Positions 14,164-51,974 of a stretch of 64,000 bases of DNA are shown one piece after another; the first letter of the stretch is position 1; each line of letters opens with the position of its first letter. This DNA is from Lepisosteus oculatus. Taxonomy: Eukaryota; Chordata; Actinopteri; Semionotiformes; Lepisosteidae. The stretch covers positions 41,858,490 to 41,922,489 of the forward strand of contig NC_090709.1 in assembly GCF_040954835.1 (NCBI RefSeq), in the 5' to 3' direction. The notes under the pieces are model-generated. The model worked only from the letters and a program-made list of their open reading frames with translations, was not told where the DNA came from and ran no database searches. The translations under genes and the position numbers were made by a program.

Positions 14164-17100
14164 GTCACCCACATGGATTCTGTTGCTGATTCTCTCATCA
14201 GGTGAGTCAGGTTTTGGGACCCCTGGACTAACTGGACCAGGGACATAGACCCCTGGACTGACTGGACTGGGGACACAGACCCCCTGGACTGACTGGACCG
14301 GGGACACAGACCCCCTGGACTGACTGGACCGGGGACACAGACCCCCTGGACTGACTGGACCGGGGACACAGACCCCCTGGACTGACTGGACCAGAGGTCA
14401 CAGACCCCCTGGACTGACTGGACCAGAGGTCACAGACCCCCTGGACTGACTGGACCGGGGTCACAGACTACTTCTCTCACTGGATTGAGGTTCTTCAGGA
14501 CCAGGGTTGGAGACCCCTTATTTAGATGAGCCTCATCCTCTTTCCTGTTGGCTGATGGGACAGTGCAAGTGTCCCTGAGCCCACCAGCTCCAGAATGGAT
14601 GTACTGTTGGATATACTGGGTGCTGTGGTTAGTGGTGTCCCGGGTTTCCTCTGACCAGTCCAGACGCACGCTGGTTGGTGTAACTGGCTTCTGGGTGTGA
14701 GTGTGTGTCTGCCCCAGTAGTGTGTGTCTGCCCCAGCGTGTGCCTGGCGTCTGTACCCTGCCTTGCACCTGTTGCATGCTGGGATAGGCTCTGCCATCCC
14801 CGGCAACTCCGACCTGGAAATAGTGATCAGAAGACGGAGGGATGGGATTGAATTTATTCCGAAATTCTTTCCCATGTTCTTGCTTTCTTTCCCCCCCATC
14901 GCCCAGTCTCCTCGGAACACGTCCCGGTGGCGGCGAAATTTGGGGATTCGGTCACTCTGCCCTGCGACGGAAAACCCTACAGCCTTGGGATCCCTGAAGA
15001 TGTGCTCCACGTTTTCTGGGAAACCCTGGATTACCTCGTCTACGAGGTCGTGGGCAGGAAGGGCTATCCTGACAACGGGTTTCAGGACAGAGCCGAGATG
15101 TCCCGAGAGAAGATCAGCCAGGGGGACTTCTCTCTGACCGTCCACAACACCACCTTCTCCGATGGCCAGATCTACGTGTGTTACCTCCTAACAGAGAGCA
15201 GACGCTTGCTTCAGGTGGTGGAACTTGTCATTCTAGGTATGTTTTTATATGGCCAGCAGCCAGATCACCCTGCAACTCACAGCTGGCTGCTGGGAGAGGT
15301 GTTAGTGGGACCAGCAGGGGGCGCTCACCCTGCGGTCCATGTGGGTCCTAATGCCCCAGTATAGTGACGGGGGACACTGGACTGTAAACAGGCGCCGTCC
15401 TTCGGATGAGACGTAAAACCGAGGTCCTGACTCTCTGTGGTCATTAACAATCCCAGGGTGTTTCTCGAAAAGAGTAGGGGTGTAACCCTGGCGTCCTGGC
15501 CAAATTTCCCATTGACCTTTACCCATCATGGCCTCCTAATAACGCCCCTCTCTGAATTGGCTTCATCACTCTGCTCTCCTCCCCACTGAGAGCTGCTGTG
15601 TGGGGAGCGTTCTGGCGCACTATGGCTGCCGTCGCATCATCCAGGTGGGGCTGCACATTGGTGGCAGAGTGGGATTCCCCATTACCTGTAAAGGGCTTTG
15701 AGTGGAGTCTCCAGAAAAGCGCTATATAAGTGTAAGCAATCATTATTATTAATATTATTATTACAAAGATGGTGGTTACGAATATAGAAAGCACTGAGAG
15801 GGGATAATCAATAATTAAATTGACCATCAGACCATTTGACCATTTAATAATTAAATTGACCAAATTGTGTTGCCAGGAATATAGCCGAATGGTCAGTATA
15901 GTTAGAGGCACCGAGATCTTTATTCTTTGGCACAGTTTCGGCGAGGGAGCAATACATCAGAGGCCAACTGGGTTGATCACACATTTCTGAAGAATGACGA
16001 TGACACCGACAACTAAACAACACGACAGACGACATGTACTTTACCCTTATTCAAAGACAGGGCATCTCGGAGGTCAGTGTCCTGACCAGCCGGTGAAACC
16101 CACACTACTGCCCAGTGTTGCTGCCCGATTCTCCCTTCCTGTAATAAAACGCATGAGAATCTGGCTCCGTGTTTAACTCCTCCAGCTCCCAATAGCCAAG
16201 GGAGAACGTTTTTGACCTGCGGATTCCCGATAGAGGAAATCAGGAGTTTCCTAAAATAACAAGTTCCCTTGGGCATCGGGTCAAGTGCCGAGCAGGAAAC
16301 TGGTCCGTAAGGCTGAGCTAAGGCGGAACTAACGTAGGGGTCTCATAACTCTGCGTGCACGGGGTTCGGGAATGTCGGTACGGCTCCCGTCTGTGAGACC
16401 TCTGGTGACGGGCTCAGTCCTCAGAGAAGTGAGCCGCTGTCCTGTCCGAGGAGACACAGAAAAGCTCCCGACCTGAAATTCTTTGTGTCCCAGCGTGTTC
16501 CAGGTTTGCATGAATCCATCACGAGTCGCTCTGTACTTTCTGTGTGTTTCAAATATCGACTCTGTACAGAAGAGCATATTAATGTGTTCATGTTACTCGT
16601 GTAGAGGAATCGTAGCTGAGATATTTTCTCATACACCGACACCGATACCTAGTGGTGGCGTGAGGCACTGTGAGAGGATCAGGGAGGTGAGAGGGAACGT
16701 TTTTCCAACATCCTAAAACTGATCGGAAGTTCTGATGGCAGGAAATTAGCTTTTTCCCCCCCCGAAAGAATTCATCTTTTTTTCCAGTTGTCCATTTCAC
16801 CAAGAACGGTAAGGTGGCTTGCTTACTGATTTCATTGGGGATATGTTTGTTTGTTCAAAGAAGAATTAAAAGGTGTAAAAAGTTAGTTTCTCCCTTTGAT
16901 GAGGACAGACTGGATCAAACCAAAACAACATTTTGAAGTGAATTGCGAATATATTGAGTTGTGATGCAACCATAACTTGAACCTAACGTGCCTGGGGCGT
17001 GTGTTTGTGAAATTGCGTTTGAAATGCAAAATGAAGCTGATCGCAGTCCAAACTCGAGGTGTTGTTGTCAAACTACATATTCAACAGGTTTCTACCTGTC

Positions 17101-18624
17101 CCTTTTCAGCTCGCTCAGAAGTCCACAGCCTGCAGTCTGGTGCCTCTCTGTCTCTCCCCCTGCACACTGCTGGTCCAGTGGAGGTGCTGTTTGATCCTGG
17201 AGGATCTGCCCAGTCTCGCAGGGTCTTACTGAGCAGGGCAGGGCTCCCTGGACCCAGGTACAAGCAGAGAGTGTCAGTGCAGAACAGCTCTCTGACACTG
17301 CGTTCCCTCACTCCAGCTGATCAGGGCAACTACACAGTGAGGGACCTTCAGGGAAACACTATCAGCACTGTGACAGTCACTGTGGATGGTAAGCAGGTCT
17401 ACAGTAGGGTCACTAGAGGGGTCTACACTCCTGACAGAGGGTGTTCTTATATCAGTTTCTGTCCTGATTGTCTTTCAGCTCACAGAGACACTGTCACCCT
17501 GCAGCCTGGAGCCTCTCTGTCTGTCCCCCTGTTCACTGGAGAGCCAGTGGAGGTGCTGTTTGACCCTGCAGGAGGTGGGAACTGGACCTCAGTGTGTTCT
17601 GTCCAGAACAGCACAGCCCGCTGTGTCCCCCAGTACAGAGACAGAGTGTCGGTGCAGGACGGCTCTCTGACACTGCATTCCCTCACTCCAGCTGATCAGG
17701 GCAACTACACAGTGAGGGACCTTCAAGGAAACACTATCAGCACCGTGATCTTCACTGTGGGAGGTGAATAACAATATAATTATGAACTTTATTTTATATA
17801 GCGCCTTTAAAGGTGGCTTCTCAAAGCGCTTTACAGGATGACAATAACAATAAATAAGAAGGCTACAACAATAAATAAGAAGAATACACAAGTTAAGAGA
17901 CAATTACAATGACAACAATACAACAATAACAATAGAGGAGACCGTGGAAGGTGGTACTGAGAAGAGCAGAGGGGTGAAGAATGGAGCCAGTTAAGTAAAG
18001 GCTTTTCTGAAGAAGAAGGAGTTAGAGAAGGTGATTCTCTGATATCCTTGGGCAAAGAGTTCCAGAGCTTGGGGGCATAGCAGGAGAAGGCCCTGTCGCC
18101 CATACAATGTAGACGGGCTTGGGGGACAGTAAGGAGGGCAGAATTTGAAGAGCGGAGTTTGCGAGGTGGGGAGTAGGGCGATAATAGTTCAGACAGGTAT
18201 TGAGGTGCCCAGCCATGTAGAGCCTTATAGGTGAGCAGGAGGATTTTGAAGTCCACGCGGAATTTGACCGGAAGCCAGTGCAGGGACTCCAGGATAGGAG
18301 TAATGTGAACACTTGCACTAGACCTGGTCAGGATTCTGGCTGCTGAATTTTGGACCTACTGCGGTTTGTTCAGAGTAGATTTAAATACCCCAGTGAGTAG
18401 AGCATTGCAGTACTCAATTCGAGAGAATACAAATATGTTGATCCGAATGCCATAATACCGAATACCGGAATAAATTCCGGTATCTGAGAGTTTTTTTGCA
18501 CCTGCAAAACATGGAGTGTAGCTCGTGCCTGGCCTGAACCCTCTCCAATGGCTGAGCGACGTGCCTCTGCGGCTCTTGCAATGGCAGCTCAGCACTTGCA
18601 GTGGAACTACACCCTCAATCAGGA

Positions 18625-18709
<85 letters not shown>

Positions 18710-19676
18710 GGGGACATGCAAAACTCCCCTTCCTGTCGACTGTTGTGCTGTTGCACGTGAACTTAGTTTATAAATCCTTTCGCCCTGAAATAAAGGGAAA
18801 GTTGAGTTTTTACCACTATTATTGGTTTTCGATGAGACGGCGGTTCGAAGGGAGCTGGTGATGCTATTTACCAGTTACTAGTAGTTTTTTGCGAGTTACT
18901 TACCCATGTAGATCAGATCACTTTACTAACCCTATACAATGTCTGGCATGAGGAATCGGTCTTGTCGCAGACCCCAGCTGGCTCTCCAGGAGACACACAG
19001 ACAGGGAGAGAGAAGCTGGGGGTCAGAGCGCAGGGTCGGCCATTTCTACGGCGCCCCTGGAGCAGCTGGGGTTCAGGGCCTCGCGCAGGGGGGGCCCCAA
19101 CGGAGTAGGATTCCTCTGCCGGCCGCGGGATTCGAACCGGCAAACCCCTCCCAGCCACAGAGCCACAGCTCCGCCCCGGTATCCCTATCTGAACTGTATG
19201 TTGGGATCAGATCTCAAGCTCATTACATTATTCTTTATGGATATTAATTCCCCTTTTGCTAGACGTTGCGTTATTTTTCAGGAACATAACCTGACCTTAC
19301 AGTTGACCTCTCTGTACTGTATTTGGTAGCTGCAAGTGAACCACAAACTCTGTTTAACTGGCGGTCTCTAACCTGCCTCTAATCCATTTCTTCTTATGGG
19401 GAAAGAACTTGAACTTGAAGTTCACGAGGATTATGATGAATTATTATTGTTGTCTTTCTCTTGTCCTCTGGTCTCACAGGACCAGCTCCTCCAGGACGAA
19501 CTCGTCTCCTCTCCATCCTCATCCCTGTCCTGACTGTCCTGTCCGCCCTGGGAGTCCTGGCTGGTCTGTACTATGGAAAGACCAGGAGAGAGAACCAGGC
19601 AGGAGACAGGCCTGCGATGTTCTCTGCCCTCAGAGATGGCGACGATGGAGAGACGGGAGACCAGGAGGCACAGTAA
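14164..19676 (+). CDS. IgSF membrane protein gene 1 (V + two cysteine-poor Ig domains + TM), spliced
   Basis: Exons I can support: 14164-14201 (hydrophobic signal segment TWILLLILSS), 14907-15236 (V domain), 17110-17388 and 17479-17763 (two short Ig-like domains), 19480-19676 (transmembrane and tail, TAA stop). Each internal exon starts after CAG and ends at GTGAGT, GTATGT, GTAAGC or GTGAAT. All are phase 1 and the frame stays open. The V domain has the B-strand LPC, C-strand VFW and F-strand DGQIYVC motifs. Domains two and three have LSLPL and SVPL in place of the B-strand Cys and GNYTV in place of the F-strand Cys; domain three has an extra pair (CSVQNSTARC). The membrane helix is ILIPVLTVLSALGVLAGLYY, followed by a 35-residue acidic tail without ITIM motifs. 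The ATG exon is not identified. Known of the family: such proteins are cell-surface receptors or ligands; the V domain resembles B7/butyrophilin types. Ligand and ortholog are unknown. Confidence 0.82.
14225..14466. repeat. 31-bp minisatellite in intron 1 of gene 1
   Basis: About eight units of CCCCTGGACTGACTGGACCG, GGGACACAGAC lie just after the signal-exon donor. Confidence 0.9.
14690..14810 (+). mobile_element. 3' fragment of the common fish SINE
   Basis: It carries GTGTGAGTGTGTGTCTG followed by TGTACCCTGCCTTGCACCTG and GCTGGGATAGGCTC, the typical 3' half of the element seen more fully at 25270 and 47690. Confidence 0.6.
15255..15765 (+). mobile_element. V-SINE-like element in intron 2 of gene 1
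   Basis: Same family as 13651-14161, with GGCGCCGTCCTTCGGATGAG and the 3' end AAAAGCGCTATATAAGTGTA followed by ATT repeats. The 5' part is shortened. Confidence 0.75.
15766..17109. other. Rest of intron 2 of gene 1
   Basis: There is unique sequence without a recognised exon or repeat up to the TTTTCAG acceptor at 17109. Confidence 0.5.
17768..18440 (-). mobile_element. L2-type LINE, reverse-transcriptase C-terminus and 3' end
   Basis: The - strand encodes IEYCNALLTGVFKSTLNK, HWLPVKFRVDFKILLLTYKA, then APKLWNSLPKDI, the classic end of L2 reverse transcriptase, before the 3' tail with AAGCGCTTTGAGAAGCCACC and (ATT)n. It is 5'-truncated and carries frame breaks between the first and second segments. 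It lies in intron 4 of gene 1, antisense to the gene. Confidence 0.85.
18627..18708. repeat. (GT)n microsatellite
   Basis: About 40 uninterrupted GT units lie in intron 4 of gene 1. Confidence 0.98.
18915..19190 (-). mobile_element. tRNA-derived SINE
   Basis: On the - strand there is a Pol III B-box-like GGTTCGAATCCC near 19126-19137, then body sequence (CCAGCTGGGGTCTGCGACAA) and a tail ATTGTATAGGGTTAGTAAAG. Two more copies lie at 21535-21800 (-) and 32095-32395 (+). Confidence 0.75.
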
Positions 19677-20350
19677 GAGAGGAGAGAGTCTGGGGGAGTA
19701 GAGGTGCACATTGTTGGCGATGATGGAGAGACGGGAGAGGAGGAGGCACAGTCAGAGAGGAGAGAGTCTGGGGGAGTAGAGGTGCACACTGCTGGTGATG
19801 ATGGAGAGATGGGAGAGGAGAGAGTCAGGGAGAGGAGAGACACACACTGCTGGTGATGATGGAGAGACAGCAGAGCAGGAGGCACAGCCAGAGAGGAGAG
19901 AGTCTGGGAGAGGAGAGGTGCACACTGCTGACGACGATGGGGAGATGGGAGAGGAGGAGGCACAGTCAGAGAGGAGAGAGTCAGGGAGAGGAGAGACGCA
20001 CACTGCTGGTGATGATGGAGAGACAGCAGAGCAGGAGGCACAGCCAGAGAGGAGAGAGTCTGGGGGAGTAGAGGTGCACACTGCTGGTGATGATGGAGAG
20101 ACGGGAGAGCAGTCAGAGAGGAGAGAGTCTGGGAGAGTAGAGGTGCACACTGCTGGTGATGATGGAGAGACGGGAGAGGAGGAGGCACAGCGAGAGAGGA
20201 GAGAGTCAGGGAGAGTAGAGACGCACACTGCTGGTGATGATAGAGAGACGGGAGAGGAGGAGGCACAGCGAGAGAGGAGAGAGTCAGGGAGAGGAGAGAC
20301 GCACACTGCTGGTGCCGTCGGAGACGCAGGAGATGAAGCAGCACAGACCC
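19632..20350 (+). repeat. 78-bp (26-codon) minisatellite overlapping the tail of gene 1
   Basis: The first unit lies inside the last exon of gene 1 (tail GDDGETGDQEAQ, then TAA). Later units read GDDGETGEEEAQRERRESG and VETHTA at 78-bp spacing, which keeps frame. The stop in unit one is a TAA where later units have TCA, CCA or CGA, so one base change ended the protein early. A short deletion in the third unit shifts the frame; from 19795 a frame stays open to 20373. About nine units. Confidence 0.85.
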
Positions 20351-20439
20351 TCCCCTGTGCTGCAGTGACATAAGATCCGTCCTCATCTCCTGTTTGACAG
20401 GACTGTTGTAAGACCTGACATTAGAAGACCCGTTGTCTG

Positions 20440-20880
20440 TGTGTCTCCCAGGGGGGGTTACTGGTGCAGAATGATCACTGTGCGTTTCCCAGGGGGGGTT
20501 ACTGGTGCAGAATGATCACTGTGCGTTTCCCAGGGGGGGTTACTGGTGCAGAATGATCACTGTGCGTCTCCCAGGTGGGGTTACTGGTGGAGAATGATTG
20601 CTGTGCGTCTCCCAGGTGGGGTTACTGGTGCAGAATGATCACTGTGTGTCTCCCAGGTGGGGTTGCTGGTGCAGAATGATCACTGTGCGTCTCCCAGGTG
20701 CAGAATGATCACTGTGCGTCTCCCAGGTGGGGTTACTGGTGGAGACTGATCACTGTGCGTCTCCCAGGGGGGGTTACTGGTGCAGAATGATCACTGTGTG
20801 TCTCCCAGGTGCAGAATGATCACTGTGCGTCTCCCAGGTGGGGTTACTGGTGGAGACTGATCACTGTGCGTCTCCCAGGT
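20440..20880. repeat. 41-bp minisatellite
   Basis: Units read GGTTACTGGTGCAGAATGAT, CACTGTGCGTCTCCCAGG. About ten units, some shortened. Confidence 0.9.
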
Positions 20881-20884
20881 GAGT

Positions 20885-21375
20885 TTGCTGATCGCTGTGT
20901 GATGGACTGGTGTCCTGTCCAGGGTGTATGAGTGTGTGTGTGTGTGTGTCCTGTGATGGACTGGTGTCCTGTCCAGGGTGTGTGAGTGTCTGTGTGTGTC
21001 CTGTGATGGACTGGTGTCCTGTCCAGGGTGTATGAGTGTGTGTGTGTGTCCTGTGATGGACTGGTGTCCTGTCCAGGGTGTGTGAGTGTGTGTGTGTGTC
21101 CTGTGATGGACTGCTGTCCTGTCCAGGGTGTGTGTGTGTGTCCTGTGATGGACTGGTGTCCTGTCCAGGGTGTGTGAGTGTGTGTGTCCTGTGATGGACT
21201 GCTGTCCTGTCCAGGGTGTGTGAGTGTGTGTGTCCTGTGATGGACTGGTGTCCTGTCCAGGGTGTGTGAGTGTGTGTGTGTGTCCTGTGATGGACTCGTG
21301 TCCTGTCCAGGGTGTGTGAGTGTGTGTGTGAGTGTGTGTGTACTGTGATGGACTGGTGTCATGTATATTATTATA
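20885..21375 (+). repeat. SINE-derived ~40-bp minisatellite
   Basis: Units read TGTCCTGTGATGGACTGGTG, TCCTGTCCAGGGTGTGTGAG with variable TG runs. Same internal SINE segment as at 10.9, 22.3 and 47.9 kb. About eleven units. Confidence 0.85.
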
Positions 21376-21534
21376 AATATTTTGACCAGCAAACTCAAAA
21401 CACGGCGCCAGGGACTGCATATCGCCAGGACACAACCCGGCAGCGTGTTTCCGCCTTAACTAATGTTGCAGCTCGGGAATAAACCTATTGCTCGTAACTA
21501 TTAATAATAATAATAATAATATCACTTTATTAAC

Positions 21535-21800
21535 CTTTTACAATGTCTTGCACGAGGAATTGGTCTTGTCGCAGACCCCAGCTGGCTCTCCAGGAGACAC
21601 ACAGACAGGGAGAGAGAGAAGCTGGGGGTCAGAGCGCAGGGGCAGACATTGTACAGCGCCACCTGGAGCAGCTGGGGTTCAGGGCCTCGCTCAGGAGCCC
21701 CAACGGAGTAGGATTCCTCTGCCGGCCGCGGGATTTGAACCGGCAAACCCCTTCCAGCCCCAGGCGCAGATCCTTGGCCATAGAGCCACAATCCTGATAT
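21535..21800 (-). mobile_element. tRNA-derived SINE
   Basis: Second copy of the family at 18915, with the reverse complement of the B-box (GGGATTTGAACCGGCAAACC) near 21731 and the tail ACCTTTTACAATGTCTTGCA at the other end. Confidence 0.75.
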
Positions 21801-22320
21801 ATCCTGTTTATACAAATATATATCCTGATCCTGTTGATGCTGCTAATTTGTATATTGAACTTTTCTGCTCTTTAATGCGACTTCAAGAACGCTCAACTTC
21901 TGAAGAGGTGCTGAGGTCTGTGAACGAGATCTACTTTGAAGAGTTTTACTTCTTGCTGTGTTCTATGAGGTGCACATGACCGTTAAAGCACTGTGATGTT
22001 ATGACTGATTTTGTTTTTTTTTATAATAAAAATTAACATTGTGGTTAACATTCTTAATGCATTTTGGGTATTTAATCAGCCTGAGATATCCAGATGTGCT
22101 GCTGCGTCGACAGCTGTGCTCTTGTGCCCAAATCTATCCTGAAAATTGTCTCTGTCTTTTAATTGAAACGTTAATTGACTCACAAATCGGACCCCGGCTG
22201 CTGTCTCTGTACATATCCAAGCCCGTCTCACACAGGTTCACCAGCGACTGCAGTCTCGACTACAGTCCTTCATTCGAAAGCAGTTCAGATCATGGCTGAG
22301 GGCTTCAAAATTTGCAGATC
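21801..22320. other. Unassigned spacer
   Basis: Unique sequence; nothing recognised. Confidence 0.45.
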
Positions 22321-22324
22321 TAAG

Positions 22325-22558
22325 TGCGTTTGTCTGTCCTGTGATGGTGTCCTGTCCAGGGTGTGTGAGTGTGTGTGTGTGTCCTGTGATGGACTGGTGT
22401 CCTGTCCAGGGTGTGTGAGTGTGTGTGTGTGTGTGTGTCCTGTGATGGTGTCCTGTCCAGGGTGTGTGAGTGTGTGTGTGTGTCTTGTGATGGACTGGTG
22501 TCCTGTCCAGGGTGTGTGAGTGTGTGTGTGTGTCCTGTGATGGACTGGTGTCCTGTCC

Positions 22559-22642
<84 letters not shown>

Positions 22643-22665
22643 TGTGATGGACTGGTGTCCTGTCC

Positions 22666-22710
<45 letters not shown>

Positions 22711-22905
22711 TGTGATGGACTGGTGTCCTGTCCAGGGTGTGTGAGTGTGTGTGTGTGTCCTGTGATGGACTGGTGTCCAGTCCAGGGTGTGTGAGTGTCT
22801 GTGTGTGTGTGTCCTGTGATGAACTGACGTCACATCCAGGGTGTACCCTCCCCTGTGCCCATTGCTTGCTGGGATAGACTCCCGCTCCTACGGCGTACAC
22901 AAGGG
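22325..22905 (+). repeat. SINE-derived minisatellite with long (GT)n tracts
   Basis: Units of CCTGTGATGGACTGGTGTCC, TGTCCAGGGTGTGTGAG are interrupted by GT runs at 22561-22640 and 22670-22708. It ends in the SINE 3' part (CCCATTGCTTGCTGGGATAG). Confidence 0.85.
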
Positions 22906-22949
22906 GGGGGCAGCTGATTACAGGGGTTACACAGGGTCTCCTGGATACC

Positions 22950-23228
22950 TGTTCCAATGCCAGCAGCCATCTCACCCTGCAGCTCCCAGCTGGCAGCCCC
23001 CTCCACTGGAGCTCAGCAGGTGTGAGCCTGGTCAGTACCTGGAGGGGAGACTCCTGGGAAAAACTGAGGTTGCTGCTGCTGGGAGAGGTGTGAGTGGGGC
23101 CAGCAGGGGGCGCTCTCACCCCGCGGTCTGTGTGGGTCCTGATGCCCCAGTATAGTGACGGGGGACACTGGGCTGTAAGAAGGCGCCGTCCTTCGGATGA
23201 GACGTCAAACCGAGGTCCTGACTCGGGG
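22950..23228 (+). mobile_element. V-SINE-like element, 5' half
   Basis: CAGCTCCCAGCTGGCAGCCC through GGCGCCGTCCTTCGGATGAG; it stops after CCGAGGTCCTGACTC where another SINE fragment begins. Confidence 0.7.
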
Positions 23229-23520
23229 GGCTGTCTGTGGGGAGTCTGCATGTTCTCCCTGCGTTGGCCTGAGTTTTCTCCAGGTGGTCCGGCTGGTGGG
23301 TGACAGTCCAGAGCCGGGCTGGTGGGTGACTTGACTTCTGGGAAAACTGGGCTCTGGTGGGTGTCTGTGTTTGTGATGGACTGGTGTTAGTGGGGCCAGC
23401 AGGGGGCGCTCTCACCCTGTGGTCTGTGTGGGTCCTCATGCCCCAGCATAGTGCCGGGGGGACACTGGACTGTAACCTCATGCCCCAGCATAGTGCCGGG
23501 GGGACACTGGACTGTAATAT
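23229..23520 (+). mobile_element. Composite of SINE fragments
   Basis: Pieces of the common SINE (TGGGGAGTCTGCATGTTCTC, GGGAAAACTGGGCTCTGGTG) are joined to two tandem copies of the V-SINE middle (ATGCCCCAGCATAGTGCCGG). Confidence 0.6.
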
Positions 23521-23874
23521 CTCCGGCCCCACAAGCTGTTTGCGCACGCGGCGGTTTTCTGGCGGCTGCTGCTGTATTATTTTTATTTTGAGGGGCTCAC
23601 CTCTGACCCCCAAGGCCAAGGCGCAGAGCCCTGGGTCAGCACCGGTGCGCTATCAGGGCGTAGGTGGTGGGCTCTGCTCTGCTGCTGGGCGGTCTCTACT
23701 GGGGCTGGTGAACGGAGGAGTAGTGCACTGTGGTGTATTCTTCCTGCTCGCAGACAGACACACACACACACAGAGGTGTGCTGAGCCCAGCTCAAGAGCT
23801 CTTGATCTGGTCGTTTCTTGATCACACCTCCAGGAAACTCACAGGACGCACACAGAGCAAAGAGAGCTGAGGTT

Positions 23875-23876
<2 letters not shown>

Positions 23877-23930
<54 letters not shown>
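23877..23930. repeat. (AC)n microsatellite
   Basis: About 27 AC units. Confidence 0.97.
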
Positions 23931-24089
23931 TTATTCTACACCGAGCTCATTTTCTTTGTCAGCATGCAGACAGAGCAAAGACCTATTACCTGGCTCTCTT
24001 GAGTGGCTCTCTTGACGCTCCTCATCTGGCGGCTCCCTTCATCAGAGCTCCTGTCTCTGCGGTCTAGAAATAAATCAGGAGCAGTAAAT

Positions 24090-24405
24090 CAGGGTACCAG
24101 GCCCAGCAACAGGGCTGGACGGCTTGTTCCCCACCCCCACCACCCTCTGTGTACAGTAGAGCCTCCTGTCCTGACTGGAGGAGCTCACCCAGCTGTGTCT
24201 GGAGAGAAGCCAGGGTATCGGCTTCAACCACAGGGCTGGGCGGCTTGTTCCCCACCCCCGCCACCCTCTGTGTACAGTAGAGCCTCCTGTCCTGACTGGA
24301 GGAGCTCACCCAGCTGTGTCCTGAGAGAAGCCAGGGTATCGGCCTCAACCACAGGGCTGGGTGGCCTGTTCCCCACCCCCCCCCCCCCTCTGTGTACAGA
24401 CGTGT
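24090..24405 (-). repeat. 121-bp tandem repeat, 2.5 copies
   Basis: Units spaced exactly 121 bp (GGCTTGTTCCCCACCCCCAC at 24121 and 24242). On the - strand one frame reads VVEADTLASLQTQLGELLQS, resembling the last residues of LINE reverse transcriptases. Confidence 0.75.
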
Positions 24406-25010: not shown

Positions 25011-25011
25011 A

Positions 25012-25221: not shown

Positions 25222-25269
25222 GGTTTATATTTTTTTTTCAGCAGCTTCGATACAGAAATGGGGCCCATA

Positions 25270-25965: not shown

Positions 25966-25969
25966 TCTG

Positions 25970-26266: not shown

Positions 26267-26270
26267 AAAT

Positions 26271-27710: not shown

Positions 27711-27714
27711 ATAT

Positions 27715-32090: not shown

Positions 32091-32094
32091 CCAC

Positions 32095-32395
32095 CTCAAA
32101 AGGATCTCTGCGCCTGGGGCTGGGAGGGGTTTGCCGGTTCGAATCCCGCGGCCGGCAGAGGAATCCTACTCCGTTGGGGCCCCCCCTGAGCGAGGCCCTG
32201 AACCCCAGCTGCTCCAGGTGGCGCTGTACAATGTCTGCCCCTGCGCTCTGACCCCCAGGTTCTCTCTCTCTCCCTGTCTGTGTGTCTCCTGGAGAGCCAG
32301 CTGGGGTCTGCGACAAGACCGATTCCTCATGCAAGACATTGTATAGGGTTAGTAAAGTGATGTTATTATTATTATTATTATTATTATTATAAATG
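32095..32395 (+). mobile_element. tRNA-derived SINE
   Basis: B-box-like GGTTCGAATCCCGCGGCC near 32136, body through CCAGCTGGGGTCTGCGACAA, tail ATTGTATAGGGTTAGTAAAG and an (ATT)n end. This is the third copy and the only one in + orientation. Confidence 0.8.
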
Positions 32396-33555
32396 CACCA
32401 AAGATCAACGGATCGTCCTGCGCATGCTTCAATGCAGAGAGCACTAATCTAACTGGATAAAACCTATGAACAATTGTAAACGATCTCTCTCATGTCATAT
32501 TGATAATAATACTAACATTATATTATTAGAAGCCTGGATGTCCGGGAAAGACGTCATGGGGAGTTTGAGGGCGGCGCTATCCATTCTCATCCGATCTGCA
32601 GTAAGGGGGTAGGATACTTTCATATTACCCGTGGGGTCTCCTTTTCACATTCCACCTGGTTTTGCGGGGGGCTGTACAAATTGTTTTAGCGCTATAAGTG
32701 TGTCCAGGATGTGTTTTTTTCCTCCGGGGCAGGTTTTGGTAGGTATTTTGACGGCGCCGCTTAATGCCGCCACTCACGACAACAAGAGCTCCGGTCCCGC
32801 CGCGCTGCAGTCGGAATTGAAAGTTGAGCACACGCGTAGATAACAAAATAACCGGTTAAATGTGTAAAAAAAAATAAAAAGGACACGAAATAGGAGTAGC
32901 TCAGATATCCGCTGCCCGGGGCGACGCATTTTTGCGGAGTGATGACTGTTTATCGCGGAAGTGCCCGGTCTTATTTCATTGTACTTACTTTACTTTATGT
33001 GTCTGCTTAATTATATATATATACACACGCATAAATACTTCAGTTTCATAACTCATATCTCCCCACCTGTCGCTTTACACCTAGAACATGCCTTAGCCCT
33101 TCAGTCGTTTGATATAATTAAACGTACGATGTCGGATATTGTAGTTTTGGGCTTCGTTGTGTTATCATATAGTAGGTGCCAGCCCCAGCAGAACGTACTG
33201 GTAACTGAGCACCGCACCCGTCCCCAGGAGTTGCATGGTGTTGTCCATTCTGCTAGCTGCTAGCGTTGAACTGTGTGTTGGATGCACATGAATTGAAGGA
33301 ATGGGCAAACATCGCTGATGCGGATCCACAGAGCCAGCACAGAGCCAGCATATAAGATGTTTATAATTAGAGGCAATTTGTTTAAATAACTAGGTATGGA
33401 TAACTAGGTTTAAATAACTAGGTATGGATACTGATGTGCAAGAGAGGTGGAAAGGCTGTTTCCTTAAGCCAGCACTATAAAATGTTTTATTCTCAGTGAG
33501 ATGCTGCCATTTCATAGTGGGTTTCTGGGTTTCTTCAGTGCCTTTACTTCCATCC
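32396..33555. other. Unassigned spacer
   Basis: Some CpG-containing sequence (32540-32840) and AT-rich sequence. No exon or repeat could be supported. Confidence 0.4.
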
Positions 33556-33559
33556 ATTT

Positions 33560-33690
33560 CTAATCTCTTTATCCAGTACAGAGGATTTGGAGCCTATCCC
33601 AGTAAGCGACGGACACAAGGCAGAATACACCCTGGACATAGCGCCAGTCCATCACAGGACAGACAGACACAAACACACACACACCAGGGC
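33560..33690 (-). mobile_element. Common fish SINE, 3' fragment
   Basis: TCTTTATCCAGTACAGAGGA, GGAGCCTATCCCAGTAAGCG, CACCCTGGACATAGCGCCAG, and AC repeats, reverse complement of the 25270 element. Confidence 0.7.
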
Positions 33691-33905
33691 CAGTTTAAAT
33701 CTAACCTCAGAACCTTTCTTTTCAGAAGACTTAGTGTCTGTATCTGCTTCATTTTCTAATTTTGGTAGCACCTCTAACTGCTTGTCTTTCTTATATGCAT
33801 TTACTTTGTAATCTGTGGTCCTTTTATCTGTTTTTACATCTACTGTATTGCTTTGAGATGCCACCTTTAATGGTGATATATCAAATAAAGTTTTTTATTA
33901 TTGTT
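33691..33905 (+). mobile_element. L2-like LINE 3' end
   Basis: FKSNLRTFLFRRL matches the last residues of L2-type reverse transcriptase, followed by GCTTTGAGATGCCACCTTTA and an ATCAAATAAAG tail with TTATTATTG. Confidence 0.65.
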
Positions 33906-34394
33906 ATAGGGAAACATGATCAGATTTTCCCTGGTTCAGAAAAAAAGATCTAAAGTATACTAGTTTGTCACTCTTCTCATTCCCTTTGCTAAATGACTTT
34001 TCATACTAATCTGATCAATCTAACTGCCAGTTTTCTGTGCTTTCTCTATCCTGCTAGATTTGCAATTATTCTGAAAATTTTCATCTTGAAATAACTCATT
34101 TCTAAATACCTTTTTCACTGTTAACATCTTGCAGCAACTCTGCGACAAAATATACACTCTGACAGTTCATCCTGCTACCAACATTAAATAAAACAAATCT
34201 TAAGATTTCTATATTTATGTCTTTATTTAGTGATTTCATTAGTGACAAAGGCTAAGCTTTCTTGGAAAAATGTATTTTATGTGTTGCGGAAAAAATTGAC
34301 TTGCTTTAACAAAATATGTTTACAAATCCTTTCACCTGGCATTTTCGTAGTTAGAAATTATGGAACGCTCTGTTAAAAGCAAGGGAGTTTTTAT
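33906..34394. other. Unassigned AT-rich spacer
   Basis: Nothing recognised. Confidence 0.45.
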
Positions 34395-34705
34395 GTCCGT
34401 TGCAGTTCTTTTGCAACATGAATATAATTATATCGTTATTAATTTCTTGAGATACGCGATTCCATATTATATTCCCTTTTAATCAAATTCTAAAAGTATG
34501 CTTCTTGACTCCGGTATCGCGTTAGTTAAAGACTTCGATGCTTAAAATGTTTAGGGAGAAATGGAATACTGGTGTGTATGTTTTCTTTAAAGTACCGAGA
34601 CCAGCCATATACTGTATGTTTAAGTTCCAAAATTAATATCGTTTATGGACTTCACACGCGTTGCAGTATGCTCCTATTCTTTTTATGCTCAGGCACTAAG
34701 TAAAA
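34395..34705. repeat. Direct repeat pair, copy 1
   Basis: Closely matches 35938-36235 (shared words GATACGCGATTCCATATTAT, AAAATGTTTAGGGAGAAATG). Family unknown; there is no long reading frame between the copies. Confidence 0.85.
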
Positions 34706-35814
34706 GGAGATGCTTCATATTGCTTGACTAATTTTAAAAACTAAGTTACAAATGCAGACGCTCCCTCGGTGCGCTGCTCTGGTGCGCCGGCTCTTACACA
34801 GTGCCTGTCTGCCGTAAGCGTTACAATATACATACCCAACACTGCTTGTACCCATCTGTCATGCAAATAAAACACCTTGAATTTAATTGAATTGAGGGGA
34901 GAAGGGGGGAATACTAAAGCCAATACTGGCTCAATGGGCTTTGACGTGCTAATGCGTTGGTTTAACGGTCCGGGTGTGGCAGGCTTCCAATGTCAACTCG
35001 ACTCGATTGGAAGACAATGAACGTATTTTAGCCCTAAATGAATTAATAGCAAACATGGTTTACATAAAATACATTTTTCCAAGAAAGTTTATAATAATAC
35101 GATCTATAGTTGAAATCTGAGCCTACTTTAAAAATAAAGGAAAAGCGTTTTCAGAGAGCAATCACGCTGTGTTTATGTAGAAAAAGCGATTAGGTTTATG
35201 AGCAATCTAATTACCTATTCGCTTAAAACGCTATATAAAATAAAGTTTATTTAGAGATGAATGATCAGTGTCGCAGTTTAAATAATGGGAGTCAGGAAAC
35301 TAACACAGCGCCACCGGATTTAATAACGCAATAAAAACGCTATAAAATAATGTGACTAGGCACAGAAAAAGTTTACAGCACAGTACAATAATAAATGCTG
35401 ACCATGACTTTAGAAGCATAAATTACCTTACACTCAATTTAAACACAAGCTGTCTTTCTGTATGAACCTCTAAGCTGGTTCATACAGAAAATGTAGAAAT
35501 GCATTAGCCTGATTATGATTAAAAAACACATATAATTAAACACGCGTTTGCGATTTAAATCAGAACACGATTTAAATCAATATAAATGTTTATATTGTAA
35601 TGCATACTGTCCAGCCTCCATTTCTCTATAAAAAGTTACTCTGTTGCACACACACACACAATAGAAGCAGGAACCGTTGTCAGAAGGGAAGAAGGTGACT
35701 ATTCATTGTTATCAAAAATGACTTAGAATCGATCATGTTGCGATATTTTGAAATATAAAAGTCAATTGATTGTCCATAACATCGCTATTCTATTTTTTCG
35801 AAGAAATGTTTGTT
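34706..35814. other. AT-rich interval between the direct repeats
   Basis: It includes a scrap of L2-type tail near 35230 (ACGCTATATAAAATAAAGTT). No exon seen. Confidence 0.45.
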
Positions 35815-35819
35815 AAAAG

Positions 35820-35905
35820 AAAAGTCCAGCACCAGCTGGATTCGAACACACAACCTACCAGCTGGTAGTCACGCACCTTGACCAGTAGGCTACAAGACAG
35901 CTCGC
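35820..35905 (-). other. tRNA-like Pol III sequence
   Basis: The - strand has an A-box-like TAGCCTACTGGTCAAGGTG and a B-box-like TGTTCGAATCC at tRNA-like spacing. The region between is the palindrome CTACCAGCTGGTAG, which does not give a normal seven-base anticodon loop. It is more likely a tRNA relic or SINE head than a working tRNA gene. Confidence 0.5.
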
Positions 35906-35937
35906 ATGAACAGGCAGGCGAAACAGCCCCACACAGC

Positions 35938-36235
35938 CCTGTCGCAGTGCACGAATATAATCATACCGTTATTAAATTCTTTAGATACGCGATTCCATAT
36001 TATATTCCCTTTTAATCAAATTCTAAAAGTATGCTTGTTGACTTCGGTATCACGTTAGTTAAAGACTTCGAAGCTTAAAATGTTTAGGGAGAAATGGAAT
36101 ACTGGTGTGTATTTTTTTCTTTAAAGTACCAAGACCAGCTATATACTGTATGTTTATGTTCCAAAATTAATATCGTTTATGACCTTCAGATGCGTTATGC
36201 TCCTCTTCTTTTTATGCTCAGCTACTAAAATTTCC
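35938..36235. repeat. Direct repeat pair, copy 2
   Basis: Counterpart of 34395-34705, about 1.54 kb downstream, starting just after the tRNA-like sequence. Confidence 0.85.
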
Positions 36236-36860
36236 CTTTAGTGGTAAAATTCCATATAAATATTCAAAACTAAGCGGATTGAAATGTGCACAGTAAAGAC
36301 ATTAAATGATTAAATCTTTTCACTACCAACCAATGCACCACGAGTGCCCCTGTCGGTCATTTTGGCCAGCCAATCACTTGCCCTGCGGTGCCCTACGGTG
36401 CCCTGCGGGTTGGTTACTGTACCGCGGGTTTTTACCGCTCATTTTGAATGGCTGCATCTGTAGCAGGATTCAACATCCAGGCAGGGCCCTGTCAGATGAC
36501 CTCGAAATTTGCTTACTTCTCCGTTTTTTTAAAAATCCGCCATCTCGCTCGCCGTGTCGGCTGAGGGGCCAATGACAAAAGTCAGGGGGGCTCACAACAC
36601 AACACAATCCAAACACAACGGTCCCGGTTCCGTTACAATCCCGTAAATAAACAAAAGCCGACAACACACAAGAAGACGTTCACAAACCAAAACATGGGGC
36701 GTCATTGCCTTTCTCCACACCAAACAAAACAAAACAGAACAACACTTTTCTCTCCGGACACGCTCCAGACGCTCTCAGTGACGAGAGAAAACACAAAGTC
36801 TAACGTAAGCTACTGTGCTGCTCTCGGACTTTTCTACATAAAACAAACATAGATTCCATA
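36236..36860. other. Unassigned spacer
   Basis: Contains a small imperfect repeat (CCCTGCGGTGCCCTACGGTG near 36380). Nothing else recognised. Confidence 0.4.
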
Positions 36861-36866
36861 CAGACT

Positions 36867-37432
36867 GTGTCCAGGCTGTGGGCACTGAGCCTGTCCTCTC
36901 TGGGCAGCCAGGTCTGCCTGTGTCCAGTGTCTGTGTCCAGGCTGTGGGCACTGAGCCTGTCCTCTCTGGACAGCCAGGTCTGCCTGTGTCCAGTTTCTCT
37001 GTCCAGGCTGTGGGCACTGAGCCTGTCCTCTCTGGACAGCCAGATCTGCCTGTGTCCAGTTTCTCTGTCCAGGCTGTGGGCACTGAGCCTGTCCTCTCCG
37101 GACAGCCAGGTCTGCCTGTGTCCAGTTTCTCTGTCCAGGCTGTGGGCACTGAGCCTGTCCTCTCCGGACAGCCAGGTCTGCCTGTGTCCAGTTTCTCTGT
37201 CCAGGCTGTGGGCACTGAGCCTGTCCTCTCTGGGCAGCCAGGTCTGCCTGTGTCCAGTGTCTGTGTCCAGGCTGTGGGCACTGAGCCTGTCCTTTCTGGA
37301 CAGCCAGGTCTGCCTGTGTCCAGTTTCTCTGTCCAGGCTGTGGGCACTGAGCCTGTCCTCTCTGGGCAGCCGGGTCTGCCTGTGTCCAGTTTCTCTGCCC
37401 AGGCTGTGGGCGCTGAGCCTGTACTTCATAAG
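36867..37432. repeat. 66-bp minisatellite, about 8.5 copies
   Basis: Units read GTCCAGGCTGTGGGCACTGA, GCCTGTCCTCTCTGGACAGC, CAGGTCTGCCTGTGTCCAG. The length is a multiple of three, so several frames on both strands are open throughout. I see no start, splice or signal context for a protein. Confidence 0.93.
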
Positions 37433-37499
37433 GTTGTAGGCAGCCATGTTGGAAGAGCGTTAAATCCAGTCTTTATAAAGTAAAAGGCATCTAAAAGGA

Positions 37500-38310
37500 A
37501 GAGGAGGGTTTAGAATACTAAAGCAGACTAGGGCCTTAGCTGTAACATAGGAATCAGATTAGACATCCAGTTCTAGAATACAACATAGAGTAGGACCTTT
37601 GTTGTAGTCTGTAATCCAGACTAGACTAATGGCTCTAGAATAAAACCCCAGACTAGATCCATGGCTCTAGATTAAAACCCCAGGCTAGATTAATGGCTCT
37701 AGAACACAATCCAGATGAGACCCACGGTTCTAGAATAAAATCAGACTAGATCTGTTGCTCTAGAATAGAAATACAGACTAGCCTAATGGCTCTAGATTAA
37801 AATCTCAGGCTAGATCCTTTGCTCTAGATTAAAATGCCAGACTAGATCGATGGCTCTAGAACACAATCCAGACGCGACCCATGGCTCTGGAATAAATTCA
37901 GACTAGACCCATGGCTCTAGATTAAAATCCCAGACTAGATCAGTGGCTCTAGAAAGCAGTCCAGATGAGACCCATGGCTCTAGATTAAAATCCCAGTCTA
38001 GATCCAGGTCTTGAGAATACAATCCCAGACTAGATTAAATTCTCTAGAATTAAAATCCAGACTAGACCCAAGGCTCTGGAATAAAACCCAAGACAAGACT
38101 CGTGGCTCTAGATTAAAATCCCAGGATAGATCCTCTGCTCTAGAATAAAATCCAAGACTTGATTAATGGCTCTAGAACACAATCCAGATTAGATCCATGG
38201 CTCTAGATTAAAATCCCAGACTAGACCCATGGCTCGAGAATACATACCCAGACTAGATTAATGTCTCTAGAATAAAAGTCTAGACCAGACCCAAGGCTCT
38301 GGAATGGACC
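37500..38310. repeat. Degenerate ~40-bp repeat rich in TCTAGA
   Basis: Variants of CAGACTAGATCCATGGCTCT, AGATTAAAATCC recur about twenty times up to 100 bp before the gene 2 promoter side. Confidence 0.85.
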
Positions 38311-38804
38311 ATGAAGCCAGGTGGTGACCAGCTTGGCTGTGAGCAGCAGGACTCTAAAGGCAGCTGGTTTAATCTCCTCCACAGGTGCTCGCCGGTCCCC
38401 AGCCAGCTCGGCGTCGGAGGGAGATGCTCAGCGGTCATCCTCAATGCCAGTCCACGGCCCAGGAAGAGGAAGAGCAAGAGGGAGGTGAGATGGGGGCTGT
38501 GTTGTGCAGGAGAAGGGTGGTTTCAGGAAAGAGGCTAGTGCGAGTGTCCAAGGTCGACCAGCGACTGCAGTCGGACAAAGCAGTTCAGATTGTGGGGATC
38601 CGCAATTTCATACTGCGCCGTCGGCGAAGTCAGGTGTCAGGCCCGATTCTCAGTGTCGAGCGACACAGCGCAGGGGCCCCGGGTTTCATTCCCAGAACAT
38701 TAGCTGTGTTCTGTAACGATGCTAACAGCTGTCGGGGAAAGTGAGTGAAGGCTGACCCTTCGACTAGGTTGTCCGTCCACCCGTCCGACGGGCCGTTCCG
38801 GAAA
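38311..38804. promoter_or_regulatory. Presumed 5' flank of gene 2
   Basis: Unique sequence lies between the TCTAGA repeat and the gene 2 start codon. No convincing TATA box. It is assigned as 5' flank by position only. Confidence 0.35.
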
Positions 38805-41800
38805 ATGATTGATCTCCCTCTCGGTTTCAGCTCCTTCGCGCTGTGGTCGGCCTGGATTCAGCTGCTGCCCCTGCTGACGGAGGGTGAGTCCCCAGATCTC
38901 CAGATCTCCTGATCTCCTGATCCCCTGATCCCCTGATCCCCTGTAGCTGGTGTCTCACCTCTGCCTCTCCTCTCCTGACTCTCTTGTTTTTTCTCTTGAC
39001 TTCTTGACATCAAATCTGCAACCTCACAAATCACCTCTTGTTGAGAACATCAACGTCCTGTCTCAGATGTTTTGATTGTCATTGTGGGGGAGACGGTCCT
39101 GAGGGAGAGAGAGCTGGTGTCCAACCCCCCCTGGTCCTGAGGGAGAGAGAGCTGGTGTCCAACCCCCTCTGGTCCTGAGGGAGAGAGAGCTGGTGTCCAA
39201 CCTCCTCTGGTCCTGAGGGAGAGAGAGCTGGTGTCCAACCTCCTCTGGTCCTGGGGGAGAGAGAGCTGGTGTCCAACCCCCCTGGTCCTAATGGAGAGAG
39301 AGCTGGTGTCCGACCCCCCCAGTCCTGGGGGAGAGAGAGCTGGTGTCCAACCCCCCCAGTCCTGGGGGAGAGAGAGCTGGTGTCCAACAATCCTCCCTGA
39401 TCGTGGGGTCCCCCTGTGCCTGCTGGTGTTTTTACCAACCGATCTGTAGGGTTGTCCTAATTGGCATCTTTGATTAGGCCGCCGGTGGTGGTCCTGAATT
39501 CTGTGCAGCTGTTTCCGTGATCTTTCCAGGGTATCCCAAGGTGCTCCCCTTCCAGCAGGCTTTGTGATTTTGCGTTCGGCTGCGTTTTTTTTCTTGCTGG
39601 CTTCGGTCCGTTTTGACTAGTTTGCCTGAGTCATTCTGGGCCTCTGTCACCCCCCTGTTTCTTCAGGGCTCCTCCAGGTGTCGGTGAAATATGGCCAGGC
39701 GGTCACCCTGCCCTGTGACGGGACCGCCCACGTGCCCAGGATTCCCGAGGACCAGCTGCACGTGCTGTGGAAGACGCTGGATCAGCACGTCTACGAGTTC
39801 ATGGATGGAAAATTCTACCCCAGTGCCGGGTTCGAGCACAGAGCCCAGATGTCCCAAGAGGAGATCAGGCGGGGGGATTTCTCCCTGACCCTCGGCCGCA
39901 CCACCTTCTCCGATGAGCACGTCTACGAGTGCCTCCTGGAGGCGGATAAGGAGTACCTGCTCGCCAGCATGGAGCTGTCCATTCTGGGTAATAATAATAC
40001 TAATAATACTACTCCTAATAATTGCTTACACTTCTGTAGCTCTTTTCTGGACTCTCCACTCGGAGCTCTTCACAGGTCATGGGGATCCCACTACCGCCAC
40101 CAGTGTGCAGCTCTTTACAGGTCATGGGGATCCCACTACTGCCACCAGTGTGCAGCTCTTCACAGGTCATGGGGATCCCACTACCGCCACCATTGGGCCA
40201 TTCTGGGTAATTCCCACCTGCTCGCCAGCATGGAGCTGTCCGTTCTGGGTAATAATAATACTACTCCTAATAATTGCTTACACTTCTGTAGCTCTTTTCT
40301 GGACTTTCCACTCAGAGCTCTTCATAGGTCATGGGGATCCCACTACCGCCACCAGTGTGCAGCTCTTTACAGGTCATGGGGATCCCACTACCGCCACCAG
40401 TGTGCAGCTCTTTACAGGTCATGTGGATCCCACTACCGCCACCAGTGTGCAGCTCTTTACAGGTCATGGGGATTCCACTACCAGGGTGGCCATTCTGGGT
40501 AATTCCCACCTGTCGCTCTGGGCTGCAGGGAATTGTACAGTTGAGCGCGGATACTGGCTCCTTCTTCTTGATGAGGCCAAATAAGCTCTTCCTCCCCCGG
40601 GACCCGGAATGCCACCAGAAATAAGAGTTTAAAAAGCTTAGTTTGAAAAGGAGTCCCTTTGCAATTGGAATTAGATACTCATTGGCCAACAGTGCCATCT
40701 AGTGGATAAATCGCCACAGTACAAGCTCCTCATTAATATTCTAATTGTTCCTAATATAATGAAACCATATGATCTAAAACAGAAAAGACGTATTCGTGAT
40801 ATAATGGGAGTATTTTTGTCTTACACGGAGGTCCCTCGTTCAAATGTCGAACGGCGTGTGACGTTTTCGAAGTTCACGGGTTGACATGAGTCCCAAAACC
40901 CAGCTGACGTCCTGATGTTCAATCTCTCTGCTTTCAGCTCATAAAGAAAGTGTCACCCATCAGTCTGGAGTCTCTCTCTCTCTCCCTCTCCGCACTGCTG
41001 GTCCAGTGGAGGTGCTGTTTGATCCTGGAGGATCTGCCCAGTCTCCCAGAGTCTTACTGAGCAGCGCAGGGCTCCCTGGCCCCGGGTACGAGCAGAGAGT
41101 GTTGGTGCAGGACGGCTCTCTGACATTGCGTCCCCTCACTCCAGCTGATCAGGGCAACTACACAGTGAGGGACCTTCAGGGAAACACTATCAGCAATGTG
41201 ACAGTCACTGTGGATGGTGAGCAGGTCTACAGTAGGGTCACTAGAGGGGTCTACACTCCTGACAGAGGGGGTTCTTGTATCATCTTCTGTCCTGATTGTC
41301 TTTCAGCTCACAGAGACACTGTCACCCTGCAGCCTGGAGCCTCTCTGTCTGTCCCCCTGTTCACTGGAGAGCCAGTGGAGGTGCTGTTTGAGCCTGCAGG
41401 AGCTGGAGACTCGACCTCAGTGTGTTCTGTCCAGAACGGCACACCCCGCTGTGTCCCCCAGTACAGAGACAGAGTGTCGGTGGAGAATCAGGAGCTGAGA
41501 TTGCAGGACCTGAGGAAATCCGATCAGGGGAACTACACAGCACTGCTGTCACACAGCAGGAGAGCCATCAGTATTGTGTCTCTCACTGTGGGAGGTGAGT
41601 AACTACACAGAATGAATGGGATCGTATTAGAAAGTCTACTGGCCCCGGAACAGAGCCTTCTCCCCAGTGTCTCCTTTAACGGACACTGACCCTTTCATAC
41701 AGCTCATACCTGTGTGATAATCTTACATTCCCATTAAACTAAATACATGAGTGCGGCTCTATGCATAAACGTATTGCTCACGGTGCCCTCTAGTGGCCGC

Positions 41801-42550
41801 CTCTTGTCACTGCTGTCCTCTCAGGACACCTCACCTGTGATCTGTTGAATTTTCCCAGACCCCCAACATTTTCTGCATTATTCGAATGTCACTTGATGTA
41901 CACCACCTAAATCCGCTAGATCCTTTTAAAAAGCCCCTGGGATTTAATCTTCCCACCTCCGTCTGGAAAGCACTCTGTTCTATTAAGGCCGTGACCGACC
42001 CCCAAACCAGCACTGTGCTTGTGGGCCATCGTTGGGGGGGAATGAGGTGAATTGATGTACTCAGGGGAACTGCTGTCCTTGCTGTCGCCTTGCACCATGG
42101 GAGTTGTAGTTTACAACTATGCACCATGGGAGTTGTAGTTTACAACCATGCACTGTGGGGGTTGTAGTTTACCGCCGTGCACCGTGGGGGTTGTAGTTTA
42201 CCGCCGTGCACCGTGGGGGTTGTAGTTTACCACCGTGCACTGTGGGAGTTGTAGTTTCTGTCAAGTGCATGCAGGACGGTCTCCCAGATGCATTTTTCCA
42301 CCCAGGAGTGTTTTATAGTAAGCGCTTTCATTGATCAGAATTTTTCCTGTCCACAGGTGGAGACTCCCATTTCGTGTACCTCTGGATCCTGGTTCCCGTG
42401 GCCCTGCTGCTGGTGGTGCTGGGAGTCGGGCTGGTGCTGTACAGGAAGAGACAAGGGCGCTGGTCAGGATCCGCAGTGAGATACTCTCCGGGGGATAATA
42501 TGGTGGAGAAGCCCGGAGCCGAGAGAGTGAGAGAGTCCGGGCTGTCGTGA
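38805..42550 (+). CDS. IgSF membrane protein gene 2 (V + two cysteine-poor Ig domains + TM), five exons
   Basis: Exons 38805-38883, 39667-39987, 40938-41216, 41307-41594 and 42357-42550 total 1161 nt, exactly 387 codons with TGA. All junctions are AG/GT and phase 1. Residues 1-26 are a hydrophobic signal peptide (core FALWSAWIQLLPLL); the ATG reads through what could alternatively be an acceptor at 38830. The V domain (27-133) has Cys43, Trp61 and Cys115. Domain two (134-226) and domain three (227-322) have Leu in place of the B-strand Cys and YTV or YTA at the F strand; domain three carries Cys266 and Cys275. The membrane helix is about 328-350; the 36-residue basic tail has no ITIM. It is a full paralog of gene 1 about 25 kb downstream. 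Role by family: cell-surface recognition, B7/butyrophilin-like V domain. Ortholog and ligand are unknown. An ATTAAA at 43381 is a possible poly(A) signal. Confidence 0.88.
39085..39400. repeat. 38-bp minisatellite in intron 1 of gene 2
   Basis: Units read GTCCTGAGGGAGAGAGAGCT, GGTGTCCAACCCCCTCTG. About eight copies. Confidence 0.9.
39955..40510 (+). repeat. V-SINE-derived 46-bp repeat and duplicated exon end in intron 2 of gene 2
   Basis: The 46-bp units (GGTCATGGGGATCCCACTAC, CGCCACCAGTGTGCAGCTC) derive from the 3' part of the V-SINE. At 40218-40255 the last 33 bases of the V exon and its donor (CAGCATGGAGCTGTCCGTTC, TGGGTAATAA) are repeated, so the segment 39955-40217 was tandemly duplicated. 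Confidence 0.8.
41217..41306 (+). other. Conserved 90-bp intron between Ig exons
   Basis: It is nearly identical to the 90-bp intron 17389-17478 of gene 1 and to introns flanking the relic exon at 51613-51893 (GTCTACAGTAGGGTCACTAG, AGGGGTCTACACTCCTGACA). Such constraint or recent copying in an intron is unusual and marks the exon-intron pair as the duplicating unit. Confidence 0.85.
42091..42262 (-). promoter_or_regulatory. 29-bp tandem array with six ACTAYRNNNCCCR sites
   Basis: Each unit holds GGGAGTTGTAGTTTA or GGGGGTTGTAGTTTA, whose reverse complement (AAACTACAACTCCCA) matches the known vertebrate promoter motif ACTAYRNNNCCCR bound by ZNF143/THAP11. It lies in the last intron of gene 2. 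Confidence 0.65.
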
Positions 42551-51893: not shown

Positions 51894-51974
51894 GTGAGCA
51901 GGTCTACAGTAGGGTCACTAGAGGGGTCTACACTCCTGACAGAGGGGGTTCTTGTATCGCTCTCAGTCCTGATG

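Follow-up and report, generated by a model that had tools for sequence, protein, structure and literature searches.

Loss of the disulfide that joins the B and F strands is uncommon among extracellular immunoglobulin (Ig) domains. In the CD2-SLAM group (CD2, CD58, CD48, 2B4) a V-set first domain without this disulfide precedes a cysteine-paired C2 domain, and CD2 keeps the core Trp. NITR-type receptors have a J-like FGxGT motif in their V domain, and titin-type I-set domains form tandem Ig arrays without disulfides inside muscle cells. V-like domains without a B-F disulfide are described for zebrafish Cd58 and Cd2 (PMC5990624), the IgV domain of the CEA family is held by a salt bridge where its IgC domains have cysteines (PMC4079198), and mouse PSGs contain three to eight N domains each (PMC546212). 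Here we describe two neighbouring genes in a stretch of 64,000 nucleotides from the spotted gar, Lepisosteus oculatus (the window; GCF_040954835.1, NC_090709.1, forward-strand positions 41,858,490 to 41,922,489), both predicted to encode members of the Ig superfamily (IgSF) in which a canonical V domain is followed by two disulfide-less Ig-type domains, D2 and D3. Gene 1 (14164-19676) and gene 2 (38831-42550) lie on the + strand, and the span of an earlier reading of this DNA, the original prediction, includes both.

The exon structure, the cysteine pattern, the copies and the mosaicism discussed here were read from the sequence. The V domains of both genes have Cys at the B and F strands and reach 31.8 bits with the Pfam V-set model, above its cut-off of 26 bits, in agreement with the original prediction that this domain keeps its canonical cysteines. 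At the B-strand position, Leu is present in all four D2 and D3 domains of the window (LSLPL, LSVPL); at the F-strand position three of them have Val, and D3 of gene 2 has Ala. When two inverted copies (see below) are added, Leu at B and Val or Ala at F are found in eight out of eight D2/D3 domains, confirming the substitutions as first reported. The C strand of D2 and D3 is VEVLFD, with Phe where the core Trp is expected, and for this reason the Cys-Trp-Cys arrangement would read Leu-Phe-Val/Ala; the register of the Trp to Phe exchange was set by eye in an alignment with the V domain. Of the Trp/Tyr framework that was said to persist, only the Tyr is retained, as the F-strand Tyr is invariant in the four domains of the window. 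The Arg and Asp at the usual D-strand and EF-turn salt-bridge places are also invariant in these four. Including the inverted copies, no cysteine occurs in any of the four D2 domains, and each of the four D3 domains has two, in alignment columns 39 and 48. In the V-domain alignment the leading SS of the gene 2 row is intronic, and the apparent invariance there is an artefact.

D2 and D3 are predicted to adopt an Ig fold without the canonical disulfide. The original prediction had named structure prediction as a check on its claim of Ig domains lacking this bond; the check was run, and the possibility that these exons do not adopt an Ig fold was not borne out, as D3 (predicted local distance difference test, pLDDT, 89.1; predicted template modelling score, pTM, 0.79) and D2 (pLDDT 75) both come out with a V-type Ig fold in AlphaFold2. 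In the D3 model residues 37-43 and 46-49 form strands C' and C'', and the two cysteines of D3, placed on these strands by the model, probably form a C'-C'' hairpin disulfide. Assignment to the V-set of the IgSF is based on the Pfam score for the V domain and on the predicted V-type fold for D2 and D3. The matches in the VIA structure lists (50 in each), in one of which D2 was compared, are nearly all antibody V domains, with one Fc mu receptor in one list, and for that reason indicate fold and not kinship. Foldseek comparisons were made for D3: among the best 50 of 1999 PDB matches, which include CD58 and 2B4, root-mean-square deviations are mostly 3.4-5.5 A, and the best 50 of 1181 matches in BFVD are viral proteins with 11-23% identity, a likeness of shape only.

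Copies were searched in 264 kb (the window plus 200 kb of flanks), setting aside matches with E >0.1 and three antisense matches over D3 (E 0.0056, 0.07 and 0.41) regarded as reverse-strand artefacts. This region contains four V domains, four D2 and four D3, plus one broken copy, as well as three short F-G remnants, one of them within that broken copy. Two of the full copies are on the opposite strand: gene 2' at approximately 98.6-102.1 kb in window coordinates, with signal, V, D2, D3 and membrane exons (L014), and gene 1' at approximately 131.5-138.0 kb, with V, D2 and D3 (L018) and a membrane exon (L017). By self-comparison, with cut-offs of 500 bases and 88% identity for the blocks, the region is an imperfect palindrome, in which 5.9-58.8 kb of the window matches 74-161 kb (window coordinates) in inverted blocks of 88-97% identity around an inner axis at about 65-67 kb, just beyond the window. 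The main inverted gene blocks are 94.1% (gene 1) and 97.3% (gene 2) identical. The inverted copies, the broken copy and the palindrome support a local expansion of the family.

The V, D2, D3 and membrane exons are open in all four full copies, with the same substitutions at both cysteine positions. Across D2+D3, gene 1 and gene 1' differ by 12 synonymous and 14 nonsynonymous changes (nonsynonymous to synonymous rate ratio, omega, 0.42), and gene 2 and gene 2' by 4 and 7 (omega 0.63). One-sided Fisher tests on the rounded counts for D2+D3 gave p = 0.025 for gene 1 and 0.021 for the pooled pairs, weakly suggesting purifying selection on D2+D3. Because four copies whose Ig and membrane exons are open have it in common, and because omega in D2+D3 is, weakly, below 1 between the inverted copies, the pattern at the cysteine positions of D2 and D3 is, on these comparisons, beyond chance.

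The domains of the two genes appear to have different histories. Between gene 1 and gene 2, synonymous divergence (dS) is 0.82 in the V domain (omega 0.43, bootstrap 0.24-0.80), against 0.15 in D2 and 0.23 in D3; in view of these lower values and of the near-identical D2-D3 intron (82 of 87 compared bases), D2-D3 is younger than V, or homogenised. Moreover, D3 of gene 1 is a mosaic. Compared with D3 of gene 2, its A-C'' half is 4.2% and its D-G half 37.4% divergent; compared with D2 of gene 1, the two halves diverge by 37.1% and 8.9%. D3 of gene 1' shows the same mosaic (38.4% and 10.6%). From these differences we conclude that gene conversion has written D2-type sequence over the D-G half of D3 in gene 1, an event that, since gene 1' carries the same mosaic, would predate the inverted duplication. 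In the reverse case, with the D-G half replaced in D3 of gene 2 instead, a mosaic event would likewise be required. As this half came from D2, the LTPADQGNYT motif in gene 1 D3 need not reflect independent conservation: the motif is common to the domains, as had been noted, and its persistence is in part a product of conversion. A half-domain swap between D2 and D3 would mean that surface receptors can shuffle units below domain size.

By profile comparison, the closest solved relatives of the V domain by sequence are MXRA8, CD276, ICOS ligand, PD-L1 and BTN3A1, with the B7 group leading alongside MXRA8 and other V-set families following; these matches are modest, and within the best match to MXRA8 single stretches have E near 0.01. 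They would fit a divergent B7/butyrophilin-like ligand in which the membrane-proximal IgC domain was swapped for duplicated disulfide-less V-type exons, as would the short tails. However, the genes contain no cysteine-paired IgC domain, which B7 and butyrophilin proteins have next to the membrane, and V-set domains resemble many families; we regard such an origin as unlikely. A divergent fish CEACAM/CEA-family cluster is a less probable alternative still. Disulfide-less V-type domains are the hallmark of the CEA family, which expands by lineage, and the D2/D3 profile matches CEACAM8, CEA and CEACAM6 (E 0.0046-0.016, with CEACAM8 at 0.0046) among the best 60 of 79 matches; a survey of 33 species that included the spotted gar reported 14 teleost CEA homologues (PMC4079198), and fish CEACAM loci are treated in PMC3628338. 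Within the same 60 matches, however, the CEACAMs are outscored by FGFR3 (5.1e-5), VEGFR2 (6.1e-5), JAML (8.6e-5) and contactin-2 (1e-4), and JAM-A stands at 1.8e-4, all E-values referring to whole chains, with single stretches of the best three at about 1 or above. Furthermore, the disulfide-less domain of CEACAMs is N-terminal and followed by cysteine-paired C2 domains, whereas here both cysteines are present in the V domain of all four genes, D2 has none and those of D3 are non-canonical. Membership in the CEACAMs was rejected on this reversed domain order.

On PMC4079198 and PMC546212 taken together, mouse PSGs, with at least three CEA-type N domains in a row (N1-N2-N3), would be a precedent for successive V-type domains lacking the canonical disulfide, and the original prediction was too strong in regarding such a succession as without precedent. 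In contrast to the proteins described here, PSGs have no membrane anchor, begin with an N domain and end with an IgC-like A domain. We know of no C'-C'' cysteine pair in PSGs. Relative to the CD2-SLAM group the order is also reversed, with neither a disulfide-less first domain nor a cysteine-paired membrane-proximal C2 domain, and the core Trp is lost; titin is intracellular, whereas the proteins encoded here would be extracellular by their architecture; and the J-like FGxGT motif of NITRs is absent, by eye, from the V domains of these genes. The predicted order, a canonical V domain first and two membrane-proximal disulfide-less domains, matches no CD2, CEACAM or PSG system compared, and no title or abstract opening listed in the literature searches describes it, which is no proof of absence. 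We read the gene pair as an uncommon form of a known type of adhesion or immune molecule and not as a new kind of system. Similar predicted proteins presumably occur in other fish.

We lean, with some reserve, towards a family of type I membrane proteins, small and locally expanded, with disulfide-less D2-D3 and a role as ligand or in adhesion. Behind its signal peptide, such a protein would carry a single canonical V domain, then a pair of disulfide-less V-type Ig domains, a transmembrane helix and a short tail. D2 and D3 would have arisen by exon duplication, a hydrophobic Leu-Phe-Val/Ala core would replace Cys-Trp-Cys while the Ig fold is kept, and D3 would have gained the probable hairpin disulfide. 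Binding would likely fall to the V domain as the head, with D2-D3 serving as spacer or as a further adhesive surface, an arrangement that would most likely make the protein a cell-surface ligand or adhesion molecule. If true, two disulfide-less domains in a row, with the Trp lost and a cysteine pair on a different edge, would be a natural experiment on the requirements of the Ig fold outside the cell. A more far-reaching proposal, that this is an undescribed fish surface family with a V-domain stalk free of the Cys-Trp-Cys pin and its D3 disulfide moved to the C'-C'' edge hairpin, diversified by half-domain conversion from one adjacent exon to another and by inverted duplication in an immune-receptor-rich region, is conceivable but doubtful.

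Several observations weigh against the membrane-protein family that we favour. D2 and D3 stay below the Pfam V-set cut-off, with E of 0.0006, 0.001 and 0.0057 in three domains and no match up to E 1 for D3 of gene 2. The AlphaFold2 models were built on alignments of four rows, scores <55 were given to two of the five models for D3 and to one of the five for D2, and in the C' region of D2 (residues 31-50) the prediction is poor, with pLDDT 55-58. The first coding exon with an ATG was not located for gene 1, the tails of both genes could extend into further exons, and in gene 2' a stop ends the tail earlier than in gene 2 (L014 near 4470-4430). Between gene 1 and gene 2, omega is 0.70 in D2 (0.35-1.54) and 0.88 in D3 (0.55-1.58), both intervals spanning 1, the V domains of gene 2 and gene 2' differ by four nonsynonymous and no synonymous changes, and the Fisher tests for D2+D3 of gene 2 (p = 0.33) and for V (p = 0.27) are not significant. 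Values of omega of 0.7-0.9 in D2/D3 between gene 1 and gene 2, the nonsynonymous changes in V of the gene 2 pair, and the presence of a broken third copy and remnants would fit genes in decay, with the cysteine losses as neutral damage in non-functional copies. Against such decay, the four full copies have open exons and an identical substitution pattern, and omega in D2+D3 is 0.42 for gene 1 against gene 1', and we regard it as improbable.

Table 1. Exons of gene 1 and gene 2 and related remnants in the window
Feature	Position	Strand	Basis
Gene 1, putative signal-peptide exon	14164..14201	+	AG/GT borders; hydrophobic WILLLILSS; role inferred
Gene 1, V-set exon, canonical Cys pair	14907..15236	+	Pfam V-set 31.8 bits; AG/GT borders
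Gene 1, D2 exon, disulfide-less Ig domain, no Cys	17110..17388	+	
Gene 1, D3 exon, no B-F Cys pair, Cys on C' and C'', D-G half D2-like (putative conversion)	17479..17763	+	Alignment; borders; AlphaFold2
Gene 1, transmembrane/cytoplasmic tail exon, stop TAA	19480..19676	+	Borders; inverted copy L017 7746-7552 98.5% identical, 65 amino acids
Gene 2, putative signal-peptide exon	38831..38883	+	Borders; MIDLPLGFSSFALWSAWIQLLPLLTE 26/26 identical in inverted copy, L014
Gene 2, V-set exon, canonical Cys pair	39667..39987	+	Pfam V-set 31.8 bits; AG/GT borders
Gene 2, D2 exon, no Cys	40938..41216	+	Alignment; borders
Gene 2, D3 exon, Cys on C' and C'', Ala at F position	41307..41594	+	Alignment; borders
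Gene 2, transmembrane/tail exon, stop TGA	42357..42550	+	Borders; inverted copy 82% identical over first 49 amino acids of matched stretch
Third, broken copy: D2 F-G remnant and D3 with frame shifted by 4-base deletion	51447..51898	+	
Isolated F-G remnant of D2-like exon	4584..4655	-	

The exons of both genes are bordered by AG and GT, and the lengths of the V, D2 and D3 exons are multiples of three, consistent with phase 1. Gene 2 may start at ATG 38805 if its signal exon is unspliced. The 90 bases between D2 and D3 (17389-17478 in gene 1, 41217-41306 in gene 2) are treated as an intron because they have GT-AG borders and lie between two Ig exons of phase 1. By eye, this intron is free of in-frame stops in five of five copies, which makes D2-intron-D3 resemble a single open reading frame (ORF), and as its length is a multiple of three, its retention would preserve the frame; a retained-intron isoform is thus possible. 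The original prediction had called the family paired, which applies in the sense of neighbouring IgSF genes; the activating/inhibitory sense finds no support in the final exons of either gene, where no immunoreceptor tyrosine-based inhibitory or activation motif was seen by eye. A 78-base (26-codon) minisatellite at 19637-20314 starts within the final part of the tail exon of gene 1, which it repeats further downstream; a stop codon in the first unit ends the tail, and a long stretch downstream is open in one frame. In gene 2, the 3' end of the V exon (LLASMELSVLG) recurs as a short repeat within the intron that follows (40209-40250), and gene 2' has a copy of it.

In the flanks, the 60 longest of 377 filtered ORFs were inspected and 7 ORFs were compared with Pfam. 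Two V-set exons (L013 6748-7266 and L016 5778-6371, +) have J-like ends, IGNGT/FGNGT, the second matching antibody V domains in the PDB, and a C-type lectin domain exon is found at L019 5112-5630 (-; Pfam Lectin_C, 1.3e-18). Their proximity suggests that the surroundings are an immune-receptor region; for the gene pair itself, we consider the chances of an immune context to be evenly balanced. To the left of the cluster, repeated ORFs of 207-222 amino acids starting PATSPLHKRLTTP, one of which was tested and matched no Pfam family above cut-off, are coiled-coil-like and duplicated (L002 8592-9212, L003 7972-8592 and L005 847-1512).

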